Source of the DNA: Peribolospora baueri
Lineage: Eukaryota; Basidiomycota; Peribolosporomycetes; Peribolosporales; Peribolosporaceae
DNA length: 39,186 bases
NCBI GenBank assembly: GCA_029717555.1
Contig: JAMDHS010000132.1
Location: forward strand, 1 to 39,186
Direction of reading: 5' to 3'
In this document: piece after piece, positions 61-32,002 of the stretch
How positions within the stretch are numbered: position 1 is the first letter of the stretch
How the letters are laid out: every line of letters begins with the position of its first letter
Translations under genes and position numbers: made by a program
The notes under the pieces: generated by a model
The model's database searches: none
The model's input: only the letters and a program-made list of their open reading frames with translations
What the model was told of the DNA's origin: nothing

Positions 61-216
61 TCGCTCACCCTTGCTTGCCCACTGTACGCTCCTCGTCCCT
101 GTCTCGCGCCACGTCTCTGCTTCCGTTGGCCCTTCGTCCTTCGCGACCGCCCCTGATCGTCCCTCACGTCCCCCCGTTCCTGTCCTACCCACCGCGCTCG
201 ACGACGTACCGGGCAG

Positions 217-3504: not shown

Positions 3505-3885
3505 CGTAGACGATGAAGGGCGGTTCAGTTCATCTTGTGCTACGCACTAAATACGCGGGCGACCTTTGCAAGCTTAATCGGAAGATTACACAAAAGGCTG
3601 CGGACTCTTGCGCCACGCCGGGAGGAGGGGCGCGTGGGCGTTGGCGTTGACGTTGGGGGTTGGCCAGCATGGAAGACAAGAACGACAGCTCGCACTCGGT
3701 TTATCTTCTCCGACGCGCGTCACTTTACACGACACCGTCGATTAGCACCGAGATAACAACACTTCAAATCGGCCGGTCGAGGCGACTTATTAGATTTTCA
3801 ACCTCCTGCGACTGATCGCAGCCGCAGCCGGAAGTTGACCACCCCATCGCCCTTGGCACCCCGTCGACCACGCTTCCAACGCAGG
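3505..3885. promoter_or_regulatory. Divergent promoter region
   Basis: This is the interval between the putative start of the unrecognised minus-strand gene and the GT69 gene start. No clear binding motif stands out. A CAG two bases upstream of the GT69 ATG resembles an acceptor, so a 5' UTR intron is possible, but no convincing donor was found. Confidence 0.4.
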
Positions 3886-6109
3886 ATGCCTCCTCCTCGA
3901 GGTTACGTCTGGCGGTGGCGGCTACCGACCCCCGTAGTTCTGGCGCTTGGCGTTGCCCTTGGCCTGCTGCTCTCTCGCTGGATCTTCAACGTGAGTGCGC
4001 GCCGCATTGGATGGGCAGTCCAGCGTACCCCACGTCGCGCTTACCCTCTTTCTCTCGTCTCCCTCCCTCCGATGCCTTTGCCTCTGCAGCCCGCTCCCGA
4101 GGCGAAAGTTTGGTCGCCGGCGACTCGACTCCGCTCCGGCCCCGCTGATTGGTGGCACAGAAACGCGCAGCCGGCACTCCCGTCCCTCGAGCAGCGTCGA
4201 AGAGTGCTCGAGCTGATCGGTAATCTCTCGCCTCACCACACCAAGGAGTGCACCCGTCACGTCTCGCCCGTGTATGCCGCTCAGGCGCATGACCGGTACG
4301 ACGTCCTTGTCGGGCACGAGGTGCCACCGGAAGAGCACGATGGCAAGCTGCTCAGCCGGCTCTTCGGCGGAAGCGCCAAGGACGGCAAGAAGCACAGGAG
4401 GAAGAGCAAGTGGGACGGCGTCAAGGATCCCTTCCTCGATCGAGCCGAGGGTCTCCGCCGAGAACTCTCCCGAGCCGCCTCAGACACCAGCCGGACGCCC
4501 TCGTCGCACAAGTACTTCTTCGCCATCAATCTCTACAACTCCTTCGACATCATTCCCGACCTCTTCGCCATGCTCTTCAAAGTCTCTGCCGTCCTGGGCT
4601 ACCAGAACGTGTTCGTGTCGATCTATGAAAATGGCTCCAGGGACCAAACCAAAGCTTTGCTGCGTCTTTTCGATGCCTTGTCCAGAACACTAGGATTGCG
4701 AGTCGTCATCCGGTCGTCGAACCGCAAGAGAGGCGCTTTCCATCACCGGATCGAGTACCTGGGTAGGTCAACTCACATGTGCAAGGAAGCGCACCTTGGT
4801 TCTATATCGCTCATCCCACCTCTGCCTTTCACACCAGCCGAAGTGCGCAACTCGGCTTTCGTCCCCCTCCACGAACTTAGAGAGCACCAAGGCGAGGTTT
4901 TCGACACCATCGTCTTCATGAACGACGTCCTTCCTTGCGTGGACGACATCCTTGAGCTCATCTGGCAGAGCAGAAGGCAGAACGCCGGCATCACTTGCGC
5001 TGCCGATTACATGTTCCATGACTACTTGGTGAGTTCAGCACCCGTCCGTGGTGTCTTTCTGTGCGCGTCGACACGCTTGGCGAACCCGTTCGAACGCCGT
5101 CTCCCTCCCAACGCAGGGCATGCCCGTCTTCTACGACAACTGGGTCTCGCGCGACATCAACGGCACGGCGCTTGAAAACGCCCCCTTCGAGCGCGTCTTC
5201 GCTCACCCAGACTCGAAGCAGCGCTTCCAACGACACCTGCCGATTCAGATGCAGAGCTGCTGGAACGGCATCGCCGTCCTCGATCCAGCCCCGTTCTATG
5301 ATGTCGAGCCGGTCAAGTTCCGCATGGCCAATATTGCCGAGGAGGAGTGCTCGGCGAGCGAATGTAGCTTGATCTGTAACGATTACGCCGAGAGGGGATA
5401 CGGGAGAATTCTCATGGTGCCAAGGGTCAAGCTGGCGTATGACAAGGTGCGTCGTGGTTGCATCTCGACCCGCCACCTCCTTTTCCTTGCCTCTGCTTGC
5501 TTGCGTTGACGACCTCCCTTTCCTCTCATCACAGCGAGTCTTCGACATCATCCACCCTGACCGGCGAAACTTGACCGCCGTGCGCGGTTATAAGCGCCTC
5601 GGAGGCCGACCAGACGACCCACGTTCGGACCCGCAAGACCGATCGTGGTTTGGTCCGCACGACCGTCTGTTCGTGGACGAGGAGTACGAGGAGATTGAGT
5701 TTGTCGACGGTCCCGACTATGGTGAGTCGCGAGAGGTCCCCTTTACCCCGCTTCGCTCCAGTCGGATCTGTGAGGTCGAATAGGTTGTTGACGCCTCTGA
5801 ATTGAACCTTTTTTTTGTCATTCTCTTTCTCACTTCGTGGGAGCCAGTGTGGTGTTGGGTTAGTGTAATGCCTTTCCATGAGCCAGTTCAGCGCCGCCTG
5901 TGACCGTAATGAAGACGTCTGACCTAGTCCCTCCATCCTCTTCTCTCTTCTCCCTCGCACACCTCCTGTCTCCTTCCCGCTAACTATCGCAGGGCTGGGA
6001 CGGCGCAGGCGACTTGCAAGGCCCAGACGTCGAGCCGGTCTGGGAACCATTACCCGCGCCGAGGAGACAGGCTACGGCCGTCTATCACGACCGCGGCCTG
6101 GAACTTTAA
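3886..6109 (+). CDS. GT69 alpha-1,3-mannosyltransferase (CAP59/CMT1 family)
   Basis: This is a type II membrane glycosyltransferase of family GT69, the group that includes Cryptococcus Cap59, Cap60 and Cmt1, which act in capsule or cell-surface mannan synthesis in the secretory pathway. Six exons (3886-3990, 4090-4762, 4838-5028, 5117-5446, 5535-5721, 6009-6109) encode 528 residues. A short basic cytosolic N-terminus (PPPRGYVWRWR) precedes one membrane anchor at about residues 15-34. The catalytic region starts near residue 177 with KYFFAINLYNSFDIIPDLF, followed by VFVSIYENGSRDQT, FDTIVFMNDVLPCVDDI and ITCAADYMFHDY. Next come FYDNWVSRDINGT, a Cys-containing segment SASECSLICNDY, and a terminal IHPDRR region. 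The in-frame TTG at 3835 is not used; ATG 3886 gives the canonical anchor. For the last exon the acceptor ending at 6008 keeps a plausible tail, while the one ending at 5992 would read out of frame. Confidence 0.93.
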
Positions 6110-21201: not shown

Positions 21202-23755
21202 CTAACCTTCCGCCAACACAATCGCGCCTACGCCCCTCTCCCTCACCGTGCCTGCGCACTTCTCGCACCCTTCGTGTAGAAGCAGCACCGCCCCACCATC
21301 ATCTCGGAGACCCCCGTGATGGTGGTGTAGGTCGATCGCCCCGGCGGTCGCACCGGCGGTGAGAGCGGGCGCAGACACCGTTCCCGCTCCTCCATCGCCC
21401 CCGTTCAGGCCACTGTCCTCCGATGGTGGACCCTGCGATTTAGAGCCCATCGACACAGCCCCCACTTCCGTTCTCGACGGCGATGATCGCACATACCCCT
21501 TCGGATGCAGAGGGTCCAAGAAGTTCAAAAGCTCAGCGTGGTGAACTGCAATGGAATGATTTCCCACATCCGAGTTCGCCACAGCAGCGCCACCGCCGCC
21601 GCCGCTAGTGATCCCGGGCGAGTTCGGTGGTGTTTTGAGGTAGTGCGCCGGTAGCGATCGCAAAAAGGCGGAGATGGCCGGTATCGGCGTCTCGCCCGCT
21701 ACACCTTTCGTTCCTACGCCGCCCAGACCCAGGCCGAGACCGCTGACGATATGTTTGGCGTTGGTGCCCTTGGCTGTATTTGAGTGATGCGAAGACACGC
21801 CATTCCGGTCGTCGCCGTCGCGCCAGACGTCCGCGCCGCCCTCAGCTTCGCCTTTGTCTTCTGGGTTCACGAAAGGCCTCCTCCTCCGACCGTCCTCCGC
21901 GTCGCCAAGCCTCCTCTTCCTGCCTCCTTCTCCCACGTCGGCATTGTCGTTGCTAGACGCGGGACAAGTCGGAATGTCCTCGACCCCGGCTGCGCCCGCC
22001 GGATCGGCGGGCCCGCATTGGCAATTGTCTCCACACACGCACAAGTAGCCGCATGCGCAGCCGTGACCGGAGATCGCCTTGGGAAGTTCGATCATCGGCA
22101 GTCCTCCGGCACTTCCTCTTGACGAACTCGTCGGTGAGGAGGAAGAAGTCGCACCGGACGACCCTGAGCCGCCGTCCGAACTCAGTTCGGGCACGACTGC
22201 CGCCAACGTCGAGGAGGACCGTCCAGCCGTTGGAGAACCACCGGGTACGAAGGCGGAGAGACTATAATTTGCCAAGGACGAGCCAGTGAGAGCCATAAAG
22301 TCGTCCACCGCGCCAATGCCGCTCGGAAGTGTGAGGCCGCCCGCACAAGAGCCACAAGAACCACAGCGGGTAGGGCAGAAATGCGCCGAAGGGACGGACG
22401 CTCGCTCGGTCGGGGAAGAGTGCTCTGCGCACCCGGGACATCCGCACGTCGCTCCGCAGGAACAGCCGCTGGCCACTATGGTGTCACTTGCATCGGCCGC
22501 AGGTGCTGGGCCTGGTGTCGGCGGCGGTGGCAATGAAGACGACGGATAATCTGGAGGCAGCCCCGGCCACCGCGGAGGGTCCGCCTCGTTCGTTCTAGAG
22601 GTGGACAACTGACCGCTCTTTCGCTCGCCACCACAGCAATGTCCAACTCCTCCACCTCCTCCGCCGGCCTTCTTCCTCTGGGTATCCTCTATTCCTGCCT
22701 CTGACGTTGTCATCTTTCCTTTACCCTTGCTGGAGCAGCATGCGCCCACTTTCTCCTTCTTCCACGCCCCCCTCGCCTCCTCGCATCCGAGCTTGCTACC
22801 ATCATCACCCGGGAAGGCTCTCGCACCTAGAGTGCTGCCCAAGCTCGTACAGCAGCTGCCGCTTGAGTTGCACCCCCGGTCGCCACATTGGCATGAGTTG
22901 TCGCCGCACGAGCAAGACATAGAGGCCCCCGAACCACCAGAATGGCCAGGCCGTGTCGTCAACTTGGAAGGTCCGGCCACGCCAGCGCCATCATCGAGAG
23001 GAGAGGGAGAGAAGGGTGTGGCGTCGGAGGAGCAGCAGGTGCAAATGCCGGTAGATTTGCACTTGCACGGGTTCATAAGATTCGCGACTGGATGAGCAGA
23101 AATATGAAGCCATCGTGTCAATTTAATAGGCGGCCGTCCCAGAGTAATGAGAGAGCACCGAGCAAAGAATTATCGGATAGGGAAGTAACGACTCACATTT
23201 ATTTGAGCCCGACTCTGAAGGAGAGGCGTCGCTTTCTTGGGCGTGCCGGGCGAGAATGTCGCTGAGACCGTTGTATATGGTGGAAGGGGGCTCTAAAAGT
23301 GGAGATAGGAAGTGGAACGTTGTAATGTCCAGAGTCAGCGTCGAACCCAAGCAGGTCGAGCGGCAGGACAAACGAAAATGGGTAGAACTGGGCGACAAAG
23401 GTCAGAGATGAGACAGACACGCACCCTTTCTCCCAGACCCTTCACAAATACACTTTACATGTGCCTTGTTAGATTTCCTCCTCTGCCTACATGTCTCGCA
23501 CTGTGTCACCGGCCGCCCCTTGGGCTTGACCTCCTGGAGCAAGCGATCGGTATGGGTGCATGACGAAGAGCGATGGCCCTTTATACACGTCTGGCAAGAG
23601 TACTTCTTGTTGTTAATAAACACCTGAGAGAGAGTAGAGTCAAAAATTAAGGGTTGTGATGACATTTCAGCGGAGAGGAGAAAGTGGGCCGTTGCATTGG
23701 TCAGTGAGGTCGTCGGAGACGGGCGCAAACGCTAGGGCGGGCGGCGCCTCACCAT
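21202..23755 (-). CDS. CUF1: Copper-fist transcription factor Cuf1 (Ace1/Mac1 family)
   Basis: Cuf1-type factors sense Cu+ and switch copper-uptake and metallothionein genes. Four exons are proposed: 23755-23753 (the ATG alone), 23623-23425, 23292-23197 and 23087-21202, for 727 residues. The copper fist is residues 1-40. With the three-base exon the protein begins MVFINNKKYSCQTCIKGHR, placing zinc ligands at Cys11, Cys14, Cys23 and His25 and the minor-groove KGRP at 36-39, exactly the Ace1/Amt1 numbering. The alternative ATG at 23666, inside the proposed intron, would prepend 14 foreign residues (MSSQPLIFDSTLSQ). The rest is Ser/Gly-rich with Cys clusters CKCKSTGICTCC (107-118) and CSCGDNSCQCG (158-168). 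Further downstream are CSCGATCGCPGC, CGSCGSC, CACGYLCVCGDNCQC and a final CEKC, all likely Cu+-thiolate sites. Such clusters occur in both activator and repressor modes, so the direction of regulation is open. Confidence 0.95.
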
Positions 23756-23784
23756 TCTCACAAGACAAAATAAAGTCGCCGGTA

Positions 23785-23806
23785 AAACGGGAGGCACCTC
23801 CCGTTT
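23785..23806. promoter_or_regulatory. Perfect inverted repeat in CUF1 5' leader
   Basis: AAACGGGAGG and its exact complement CCTCCCGTTT are separated by two bases. The 3' edge on the CUF1 strand lies 29 bases before the ATG, so the RNA could form a 9-bp stem with a four-base loop. As DNA it could be a dimeric operator. Confidence 0.75.
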
Positions 23807-23922
23807 CACTCCAACCTCGCTGCACTACAGATGAATAAATTGCCAAAGAGCTGAGAATATGAGGGGCAGTAAAGACGTGGGGAGACGGTGGTGGTGGTGC
23901 TAGTCGTCAACGACCTCACGGC

Positions 23923-23948
23923 CCGGGTATGCCATCAGGCACACCCGG
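23923..23948. promoter_or_regulatory. Near-perfect inverted repeat in CUF1/CLF1 promoter
   Basis: Arms CCGGGT-A-TGCC and GGCA-C-ACCCGG pair with one mismatch around an ATCA loop. It lies about 30 bp upstream of a likely CLF1 5' UTR intron donor, so it could be in the CLF1 promoter or leader. Confidence 0.6.
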
Positions 23949-23978
23949 TCTGTTGCCGCAGCACGGATATAGGCGGCG

Positions 23979-24130
23979 GTGAGTTCTCCGTCGACCATCC
24001 ACGATCTTAACAAGGCCAACTCGCACCCGACTAGAGTGCTCTCCTCCCGCATCCGCCCCTTCTCCAGGGTGCTTTCCTCAATCTGCCATCCGTGTCATCC
24101 TTCTAACTCCTCTCCATACGTCTCTTGCAG
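23979..24130 (+). other. Likely CLF1 5' UTR intron
   Basis: A strong donor GTGAGT at 23979, a branch-like CTAAC near 24102 and a TTGCAG acceptor ending two bases before the CLF1 ATG define a 152-bp intron in the leader. It places the CLF1 transcription start upstream of 23979. Confidence 0.6.
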
Positions 24131-24132
24131 CC

Positions 24133-27100
24133 ATGTCTCGCGAATCACGCGCTCCTCGCATCAAGAACCGCGCTCCGGCGCAGGTCCAGGTCACCGCGGA
24201 GCAACTCCTTCGCGAGGCCCAGGAAAGACAGGAGGTCCGTCGTCCCGCTCCCAAGCAGCGCATCGAGGATTTTGAGGAGCTCCAGGAGTACAGGTCGAGG
24301 AAGAGGCAGGAATTTGAGGAGCAGATCAGGAGAACGAGGCAGAATGTGAGTTGTTTTTCCTTCAGTGTCGTGTCTGCTTTCTCCCGCGAGCGAGTCGGTG
24401 CTGACTTGCTGTGGAACGTGTCGACGAATCGATTGCTTCGTAGATCTCGGCATGGATGAAGTATGCGACGTGGGAAGCGACTCAGGGCGAAATAGATAGG
24501 TGAATGGCCATTTCTTCATCTACGTCAGGCCCCCCTCGTCACAGCGACCACGATGCTCACTTATCATGCTTACATTGCTCGTTTATTTGAATCTCTCAGG
24601 TCTCGCTCCATATTTGAACGCGCCCTGGACGTGGACCCGCATCACGTAGCACTCTGGATACGGTACACGGAAATGGAGTTGAAAAACAGGAACGTGCAGC
24701 ACACGCGCAACCTGTTCGATCGATGCGTGACGATCCTCCCCCGGGTGGACCAGCTGTGGTACCAGTACGTGCACCTCGAGGAGCTGTTGGGCAACGTTGC
24801 GGGGGCGAGACAAGTGTTTGAGAGATGGATGGCGTGGGAGCCGGACGAGAAGGCCTGGCAGGCGTACATCAAGATGGAAATGAGGTATGACGAGTGGGAA
24901 AGGGCTGGTCAGGTCTGGGAGAGGTGCATCTCCGTTCATCCCGAACCGAGACTGTGGATTAAGTGGGCTAGATTTGAAGAGGAGGACCGAGGTGACCCAG
25001 GTGAGAGCCAATCCAACTGGTCCCCTTCCGGTGGAAATGGGCGTCCATGTGATCGCATGCTGACCTGACGCCAATGCCTCCGTTCCAATACCGACTTACA
25101 GACCGTGCCCGAGAGATCTTCCAAATGGCTCTCGACTATTTCGGGGACGAGGAGGATCAGGTGGAAAAGGCACAGAGCGTGTACACAAATTTTGCCAAGA
25201 TGGAGGTCAGATTGAAAGAGTACGATCGGGCCCGCGTCATCTACAAGGTGAATCAGTCTTTACTGTCCTTTGATTTTGTCTCCATGCTCAGATCAGGCGA
25301 ACCATTGGCTAATATTGTTCTGTTGCCTGTTTCTCACTTTGGCGTTCCGCGCAGTACGCTCTCTCCCGCCTGCCACGATCCAAGTCTTCAGGGATCTACT
25401 CCTCATATACTCGCTTCGAGAAACAGTTTGGAGACCGGTCAGGGATCGAGGACACGGTGCTTGGCAAACGTCGGATTCAATATGAGGAGGAGCTCGCGGC
25501 CTCACCGAACAACTACGACACATGGTTTGACTACACGCGCCTGGAGGAGGATGCGTACCGAACGGCGCGGGAGGGAGGAGACTTGGACGAAGAAGACACG
25601 AAGATGGATGGACTGGAGAAGAGCAAGGTTGGGAAGGGCGCCGAGAGGGTGAGGGAGATGTACGAGCGAGCGGTGGCGCAGGTGCCGCCTGGAGACGAGA
25701 AGAGACATTGGAGGAGATATATTTTCTTGTGGCTCAATTATGCGTTGTTCGAGGAGATGGAGACAAAGGTGAGAAATATACCTCCGATCCGAGCCCTTTT
25801 TCCGACGTCGCGTAGGACTAATGCCCACTCATTATTACGTCTCATCTCCACATCACCTTCAGGACTTCTCTCGGGCCCGCGAGATCTATAAAGCGGCAAT
25901 TGCGCTAGTTCCCCACAAGAAGTTCACCTTTGCCAAGCTCTGGTTGCAGTACGCGCGCTTCGAGATCCGTCGACTCAATCTGGACCAGGCACGCAAAATC
26001 CTCGGCGCCGGCATTGGCATGGCGCCTAAGGAGCGATTATTCCGTGGATACATCGACCTAGAGATTGAGTTGAGGGAGTTCGATCGGGCGCGGAAGTTGT
26101 ACGAGCGGTGTTTGGAGGTGAGCCTTTAGTTTCGGCAGCCTAATCCCTTTCCTTTCGTCATTGCAAAAACTCACGCTTCTCTCGCAAATTTAACTGACCC
26201 AACCAGTGGGATCCATCCAACTGCCGCTCTTGGATCAAGTATACCGAGCTCGAACGACCACTGGATACGGACCGCGCCCGAGCCATCTTCGAGCTGGCAG
26301 TGGCCCAGCCGTCGCTGGACATGCCAGAAGTGCTTTGGAAGGCGTACATCGATTTCGAGTTCGACGAAGCAGATTACGACTGCGTCCGGGAACTCTATGA
26401 GCGTTTGCTGGAGCGCACGAGCCACGTGAAGGTGTGGATCGCGTACGCGCTCGGCGAGATGAACATTGCTATTGCGCAAGAGGAGGCGGAGGACGAGGAG
26501 GATGAGGACGAGGAGAGTGAAGAGGAGGTGGAGAGGTCACCGCGAGAATTGACGGAAGAGGAGATGGAGATGCGGAGGTTGCGCAGACTCGAGGCTGCTG
26601 AACGGGCGAGGAAGGTGTTTGAGCGAGGGTACAAGGACTTGAAAGATCAGGGTTTGAAGGAGGAGGTGAGTCGAGTTCTCATCCGATTCACTCTTTGCTT
26701 GAATGGCCTCTCTTTCTCTCTCTCTTTTTCTCGGCGCATCAATATTGAAGACCTTCTCCCGCCGGACATTTTCACTTCGTCCCACGCCCCCAGCGAGTCG
26801 TCCTCCTGGAAGCTTGGAAGACGTTCGAAGGCACGCACGGTACACCGGAGACGGTGGAAAAGGTGGAAGAACGCATGCCACGGGTGGTCAAAAAGCGCAA
26901 GACTCTCGAGGACGGTACGCTGGAAGAGGCGTGGGAACTCGTGTTCAAGGACGAGGAGAAGGAGAAGGCCACTTGGTCCCTCCTCGAGGCGGCGCGCAAT
27001 TGGAAGGCAAAGCAGGAGCAGATGCAGGCGGCCGCCGCCGCCGCGGCCGCTTCAGTAAACGGAGAGGTGGACGAGGCGAAAGGGGAAGAAGAGGGGAAAG

Positions 27101-29953: not shown

Positions 29954-31539
29954 CTAGGTATGCAACGAGTGGGTGAAACGGTCGAAATAGGTCGCTGGCA
30001 CGACAGCGACGACCGCTCGCCTTTCGCATGGAATGGATCCTAGGCGTCCCGGCGTCCCTGGAGGCGGAGACGACGTGCCATCTCCGGCTGATGGTACACC
30101 AGAGTCGACGACTCCTACCGATGGTCTGTCTTCCTTCGCCTCCTCCCACTCACCCCATCCATAGCCCTCCTCCCCTTCTCGTCCATCCCATGCATTGGCC
30201 CGCCCTCCGCCGCCCAACTTCAGTCCGACCCAAAAAACGAACGCAAACGTCGCGGTCGTTTGCAAGACCCTAACCACCCACCCAGACCCGTGGAACTCTC
30301 GATCGGGCGCAACGCCAGGATCGACGGCTGAACTTCTCGCGCCCGTATCCGTACCTCTCGAGGAAGAGGCACCGCCGGCTTCCTCGGCCTTCCGAGCAGT
30401 TCTACGGGCTTCCCTCGCGGCGAAGCGAGACACATAGTCCGTCGCCCCCCCGCCTCCTGACGCCCCTCCTCCCATCGCTTCTGCCGTCCGATGGTATGTG
30501 GGCCCTCGGCCCGTCCTCGCACCGCCGCCGCTCGTGTCCCGTTGTGGAGAGTAACGGCGGTGGTGATCCCATGCGTACGACGCTCGAGCGCGGCGCTGTG
30601 CGTTTGAGGAGTAGGAGGAGTGGTACGAGCCACCGGAGGATGTGCCGTACGGGGAGCTGCCATAACCTGAGGCGGGCGAATGGCCGAATGAGGCGTCATA
30701 TTCTTGTCTGTAGAACGAACGTGAGAGAGCGTCGACGGAGAAAAGACGGGCATGGTGAAAGCGACGAAAGAAAAAAAGAAGGAAATGGAAACACCCTGTC
30801 ATCGTCCGCTCACGAGCTGCAAGGCTGTCCAACGCTGAACTCACCTCTTCTTCGGATCTCCCAGGATGCCCCATGCTTCGCTCACTTCCTGAAATCTTTT
30901 CGTCGCGTTCTCATCGTTCCGATTCAAGTCCGGGTGATACTTTTTTGAAAGCTGAGCGGACCGACCAATTGGCATGAAATAGACAGAGTCGGTCAGTTGA
31001 ATAATGAGAGGATGAAGGAGACGCAGAAGCACAAGGCAGAGAGTGAGCGTCAGATCGTGCCAACCGTTGGCACACAGACGAGCGAGGACGTCCGTCCTGG
31101 CACCACCAAGTTGTGACCTCCGCCACAACGGCGTCAGAAGCAGGAGTACCTGGGCACGCCCTTCCGCACGCCCAGCGTCCCGACAATCTCCCTGATACAT
31201 CAAGCTCACCTTGTAAAACTGCGCCTTGATCTGTGCGGCACTGGCGCTCTTCGGCACGGATAGCACGTCGTAATAGTTCTTGGCGCGCGCCGCTGCGCTT
31301 GTATGAAAGGGTCGACGAACGGCGTGTGCTGTGTGCGAGGTGCGATGGTTGAGGTGCGATGGCGACCCGTGCAGCGCTGGGAAGAAGGCCGAAGCGTAAG
31401 CGTCTGGAGCCGGCGACGAGGAGGGGAAGGGTCGTCCGCTGACCGCGATGCTAGCCCTGGCAGCTGCTGCCGCGGCGAGGGAGGGTGGCGAGAGAAGGGG
31501 GTTCAGTCGGGATGGCATCACGGACGGACCTGGCCGCAT
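29954..31539 (-). CDS. Mitochondrial-type J-domain (Hsp40, class III) protein
   Basis: J-proteins stimulate Hsp70 ATP hydrolysis. Three exons (31539-31210, 30951-30845, 30707-29954) give 396 residues. The N-terminus is Arg/Ser/Ala-rich without acidic residues (SLAAAAAARASIAVSGRPFP, then VRRPFHTSAAARAKNYY), a mitochondrial presequence with a typical cleavage-like RPFHTSAAARA. The J domain follows at about 87-150: YDVLSVPKSASAAQIKAQFY, helix II into the catalytic HPD at 116-118 (KKYHPDLNRNDENATKRFQE), and WGILGDPKKRREYD. A Ser/Gly-rich linker leads to one transmembrane segment near 287-310 (VLQTTATFAFVFWVGLKLG). It therefore probably sits in the inner membrane with the J domain in the matrix. 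No zinc-finger or CTD substrate domain is present, unlike Mdj1. The ATG at 31518 is an alternative start. Confidence 0.9.
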
Positions 31540-32002
31540 TATATGCGACCGTACACCTTCTAACGATGAAGCCGGGGTGTCCGTGTGGCGAGAGCCCGTG
31601 CCTGGTGGTGGTGGTGGTGGTCGGAGTGGTGATCGGACCTGAAACACCTTTCTTCGATCACATCGCATCCACCTCCTCGTCACCGCCATCGATCTCGAAC
31701 CTAATGAGAGATCCATACGAATGACATTCGCAAATGCGCGCAAAAAAAAAAACCCCACCACCACGGACAGGTATCCTACGCTACAGCCATGGAACATCGG
31801 CACTTTCCGACCGCAGAAGAAAAAGAAAGAAAGGGCAAGATAAAGGATAGGAGAGAGAGTCCGTCGTCCAAAGCGTCTGACGGGTAACGGCGCTACACAC
31901 TCTAGAGAGTATGATAGAGGTACGTGGCGAGAGCCGTCAGAAGGGAAGAGCAATCAAAGCTAACTAGATCCAAACGTATGGAAGGTGCCTGGGGTAGAGG
32001 CG
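31540..32002. promoter_or_regulatory. J-protein promoter and WPL1 3' region
   Basis: No gene is seen in this 463-bp stretch. It includes a TGG-type short repeat near 31604-31622 and an A11 run at 31741. Confidence 0.45.

Follow-up and report, generated by a model that had tools for sequence, protein, structure and literature searches.

A predicted start-codon-only first coding exon in CUF1, a copper-fist regulator gene of Peribolospora baueri

The CUF1 locus and its neighbours

The window analysed here, a stretch of 39,186 nucleotides of the P. baueri genome, carries on its minus strand the gene CUF1, for which we infer four coding exons and a protein of 727 residues (Table 1), all exon joins being placed by reading frame and homology. 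Read along the minus strand, GTGAGA precedes the ATG at 23755-23753, the donor GTGAGGCGC follows from 23752, and the acceptor TCTCTCAG (in its longer form TTAATTTTTGACTCTACTCTCTCTCAG) has its last base at 23624. Exon 2 then opens at 23623 with GTGTTTATT, which reads GTG TTT ATT, and the codon preceding V2 in the unspliced DNA is CAG. A sequence-only reading of this DNA had proposed just this arrangement, an ATG followed at once by GTGAGG, a 129-nt intron, CTCTCAG and GTG TTT ATT, and each of these elements is seen in the minus-strand sequence. Exon 1 itself must be longer than three bases, since it has to hold the 5' leader; only its coding part would be 3 nt.

Table 1. Features of CUF1 and its upstream region, in window coordinates
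Feature	Position	Strand	Basis or remark
Start codon, whole coding part of exon 1	23753..23755	-	sequence; M1 of the gapless AMT1 match
Intron 1, 129 nt, GTGAGG...CTCTCAG	23624..23752	-	predicted from frame, homology and splice signals
Coding exon 2, copper fist	23425..23623	-	PF00649 at 23507-23623, E 3.6e-21; exon end predicted
Coding exon 3	23197..23292	-	predicted from frame and splice signals
Coding exon 4 up to the stop codon, many cysteine motifs	21202..23087	-	predicted
TAG at which translation from ATG 23755 would end with intron 1 retained	23732..23734	-	sequence
In-frame ATG within intron 1, would add 14 residues	23663..23665	-	sequence
Palindrome, 13-nt arms 23782-23794 and 23797-23809, 2 nt apart	23782..23809	.	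ends 26 nt before the ATG

CUF1 shares a short promoter with a divergent neighbour, a crooked-neck/CLF1-like splicing factor gene that runs on the plus strand from 24133 onward, a start set by eye. The stretch at 25313-25888, for example, matches human Crooked neck-like protein 1 (E 1.6e-34), and the first exon of this gene taken alone matched no Pfam family. Elsewhere the window holds a CAP59-type mannosyltransferase domain (3757-5172, plus strand, E 3.3e-35) and a DnaJ domain (30844-31953, minus strand, E 1.9e-18).

Copper-fist homology of the joined N-terminus

A feature of the copper fist is a set of metal ligands, C11, C14, C23 and H25, together with (K/R)GRP at 36-39 and a Met1 that adjoins the domain. 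Joining the start codon to exon 2 gives MVFINNKKYSCQTCIKGHRSSSCTHTDRLLQEVKPKGRP, which starts MVFINNKKYSC and places C11, C14, C23, H25 and KGRP at 36-39, so that the metal-ligand and (K/R)GRP pattern, with Met1 next to the domain, is present in CUF1 in the alignment with AMT1 residues 1-41. This alignment (PDB 1co4) is gapless from M1, with E 2.2e-11, and it bears out the N-terminus and ligand positions first read from the sequence. The Copper-fist profile PF00649 is filled along its whole length, positions 1-39 of 39 falling on CUF1 residues 2-40, at a score of 76.7 bits against a curated cut-off of 25, and in a search of the genome CUF1 was the sole match (3 candidates scored). Cysteine-rich motifs in the C-terminal part are a further feature of copper-fist transcription factors; the predicted protein has four CxC-type motifs, at residues 107, 158, 308 and 443, and a Pfam search of the exon 4 region (21205-23169) gave no match. 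By its sequence CUF1 would be classed as a copper-fist transcription factor of family PF00649, with copper-dependent DNA binding predicted. A model in which an intron directly follows the start codon is credible because the family match begins at M1/V2 with all 39 profile positions filled, and we consider this gene model very probably correct.

Splice signals of the predicted first intron

Intron 1 was compared, by leave-one-out scoring, with 23 reference introns read by eye; conserved genes of the genome supplied 21 of them and CUF1 itself the other 2. Its length of 129 nt lies within the reference range of 62-282, its acceptor score of 4.3 lies within the range of -1.9 to 9.0 (7 of the 23 are lower), and yTnAy motifs stand 24 and 17 nt upstream of the acceptor end. 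The donor is weaker: the intron part scores 4.9, with just one of the 23 references lower, and with the three exon bases, which are here forced to be ATG, the score falls to 3.6, under all 23 references (6.4-11.5). A G occupies donor position +6, as in none of the reference introns. This weakness argues against the intron being very strong and lends mild support to retention.

As to chance, the 509 nt that separate exon 2 from the start of the divergent neighbour contain four ATGs followed by GT or GC, and only the one at 23755 is donor-like. When this interval, its last 20 nt excluded, was shuffled with dinucleotides preserved, 58 of 2000 shuffles contained an ATG|donor that equalled or exceeded the real one in score, and 13 of 2000 contained one as good that also had A at -3. 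An acceptor as good as that of intron 1 is found at 263 of the 39186 plus-strand positions of the window, and the joint chance of donor and acceptor would be near 2 in 10,000 if the two are independent. A coding exon made of the start codon alone fits both the sequence and the homology, the splicing itself being predicted. We favour, and hold to be likely, the reading that CUF1 encodes a Cuf1/Ace1/Mac1-type copper-fist regulator and that, in this fungus rich in introns, codons 1 and 2 are separated by an ordinary intron. Exon 1 would consist of the leader and the AUG, splicing would join that AUG to GUG UUU AUU and so produce the canonical N-terminus of the family, and intron 1 would presumably be removed in most transcripts and not act as a regulated switch.

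Retention of the intron and a possible copper link

Retention of intron 1 had been expected by the sequence-only reading to shift initiation into another frame. This does not hold, and a frame shift is ruled out, since 129 = 3 x 43: the intron is 43 codons long, which leaves ATG 23755, ATG 23665 and exon 2 in the same frame. What the unspliced reading from ATG 23755 meets instead, after MVRRRPP, is an in-frame TAG at 23734-23732. The intron also contains an out-of-frame ATG at 23697, and from ATG 23665 a further 14 residues, MSSQPLIFDSTLSQ, would precede the fist; the earlier reading had the number of residues right and the position of this ATG (given as 23666) off by one. An RNA that keeps the intron, or one begun within it, could in principle give a fist with this extension.

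On this basis one can suppose that retention of intron 1, or transcription from inside it, perhaps depending on copper, yields either less Cuf1 or the form that is 14 residues longer. We regard this as unlikely, with a small but real chance. The weak donor and the in-frame ATG 23665 speak for it, and the regulatory sequence speaks against it: no exact CuRE (WAAKGSCKCR), the site that SOD1-like skipping would have near the start, lies at 23400-24200, and the window holds 38 CuRE-like sites, below the shuffle mean of 48.8. With one mismatch allowed, the closest CuRE lies at 23420-23429, where exon 2 meets intron 2. A looser GCTG-type pattern has a single match, within intron 1 (minus strand, 23675). 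CuRE control of intron 1 was rejected for lack of an exact site at 23400-24200. Precedent in Cryptococcus points both ways. Exon 1 of C. neoformans SOD1 has nine nucleotides including the ATG, and in low copper 5'-truncated transcripts that lack this exon are made in a Cuf1-dependent manner (PMC7961099). Excerpts of two further sources describe widespread alternative use of transcription start sites in C. neoformans (PMC11302930) and, in a review, alternative splicing, mostly retention, in most Cryptococcus genes (PMC5851062); the former nevertheless judges that alternative splicing probably has a minor impact in Cryptococcus (PMC11302930). Splicing of intron 1 as a copper control point is possible, by analogy with such cases. 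If the intron were regulated, CUF1 would join C. neoformans SOD1 as a copper gene in which start-codon use is set by the 5' structure of the transcript.

A possible start inside the intron and a predicted leader hairpin

It is very unlikely, in our view, that the intron is absent and translation begins at ATG 23665, 14 residues ahead of the fist. That ATG shares the frame of exon 2, with no stop codon between the TAG and this exon, but the family match starts exactly at M1/V2, the extension falls in a pyrimidine-rich tract readable as an acceptor with yTnAy motifs, the base at -3 of ATG 23665 is G, and an out-of-frame ATG stands at 23697. A gene finder that allows no intron after the ATG could nonetheless start CUF1 at 23665. 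The view that such a call would be a mis-annotation is backed by sequence and homology; the protein so predicted would carry 14 foreign residues ahead of its metal-binding fist, and N-terminal tagging would be misled.

We give hardly any credence to an RNA switch built of the leader, the start codon and the weak donor, in which the AUG would be usable only once spliced and on which copper or stress could act. In that scheme the 3' arm of the upstream palindrome would pair with the AUG and donor in unspliced RNA (AUG unpaired 0.03), and after splicing the palindrome would close on itself and free the AUG (0.59). The arms are 92% complementary, and the predicted unpaired value of the AUG is 0.03-0.04 in the pre-mRNA and 0.30-0.59 in the spliced RNA when transcription is taken to begin at 23880 to 23800. 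The effect vanishes when the assumed start is 23790 or 23780, so that one at about 23800 or upstream is needed. An AUG as closed appeared in 8 of 300 leader shuffles, and an opening on splicing as large in 4 of 300; among the 21 control starts described below one was lower and one tied. The donor, at an unpaired value of 0.17, is not unusually hidden by structure compared with the reference donors (7 of 23 lower, 3 tied at the printed precision) or with leader shuffles (132 of 300 as low or lower). For a test chosen post hoc on one sequence, such a leader hairpin, predicted to mask the AUG until splicing, is no more than suggestive.

Equally, the palindrome may act at the DNA level, as a CGG-N10-CCG site with the spacing of Put3 in the promoter common to CUF1 and the crooked-neck gene. 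Its core occurs without mismatch in the genome at 23782-23809 only. It was rejected as a repeat: one other place carries it with 2 mismatches, and the reversed pattern, used as a control, likewise has a single place.

Start-codon exons in other genes

As controls we checked 38 gene places in the P. baueri genome (13 Ras, 6 LSM, 8 proteasome, 5 ubiquitin, 1 ubiquitin-like, SOD1 and 4 L7Ae), and in reading their starts we used the N-termini that such proteins are expected to have. A start codon was taken for 21 of the 38; the other 17 were dropped, mostly without a readable start, though at least 2 of them (L073 and L086) had a visible, plausible ATG that was left unused. Among these 21, no first coding exon is 3 nt long, and two, those of SOD1 and an SmF-like gene, appear to measure 9 nt. 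In SOD1 (L002, from 885-893 onward) the apparent exon ATGGTCAAG is followed by a 282-nt intron that opens with GTGAGC, and in the SmF-like gene (L051) the apparent exon is ATGTCTTCG. An acceptor-like CACAG|ATG stands at the start of two ubiquitin genes and one Ypt1-like gene (L003, L008, L036), in which a leader intron may end at the start codon. Telomere-like AACCCTAA/TTAGGGTT motifs were seen upstream of a ubiquitin gene (L007, about 1060-1115), an RPS12-like gene (L091, about 78-95, reverse strand) and an RPL30-like gene (L093, about 215-265).

The start-codon-only coding exon of CUF1 is uncommon, yet the arrangement is of a known kind. Its supposed rarity agrees with the count of 0 of 21 and is not remarkable per se, since 20 genes of S. 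cerevisiae have a first exon coding the AUG only, among them RPL30, RPL35A/B, RPS17A/B and UBC12 (PMC3226532). In the open-licence text of PMC we recognised no paper that reports an intron directly behind the start codon in a copper-fist gene, and a scan of viral contigs for relatives found none. Of about 159 transcription-factor genes of A. nidulans that call for re-annotation, one is a copper-fist gene (PMC8396895), and two MAC1 genes of P. ostreatus have four and three introns (PMC10816978); the excerpts of both papers give no position for the first intron.

Comparison with known systems

The copper fist of AMT1 (1co4) resembles CUF1 throughout residues 1-41, with the ligand cysteines, His25 and GRP and no gap, a comparison that covers a 42-residue module only, the 1co4 entry being without gene structure. 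As for gene structure, the AUG-only set of S. cerevisiae, as excerpted, includes many ribosomal-protein genes and no copper regulator among its 20 members (PMC3226532); RPL30, which belongs to it, has another arrangement in P. baueri, and a search of the P. baueri genome with the Ribosomal_L29 profile, for a counterpart of yeast RPL35, gave no match. An intron at the start codon, as predicted for CUF1, is also present in 47 Y. lipolytica genes whose first coding exon is a single base, the A of the ATG; there the intron lies inside the ATG, whereas in CUF1 it would follow it, and the authors argue that retention leads to an early stop (PMC2911113). C. neoformans SOD1 has, as predicted for CUF1, a tiny start-codon exon in a gene of the copper network, and the first coding exon of P. 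baueri SOD1 apparently has the same length, 9 nt. In the excerpted report, however, the C. neoformans gene is a Cuf1 target whose regulation has been tested (PMC7961099), whereas P. baueri CUF1 is the regulator itself, as read from sequence.
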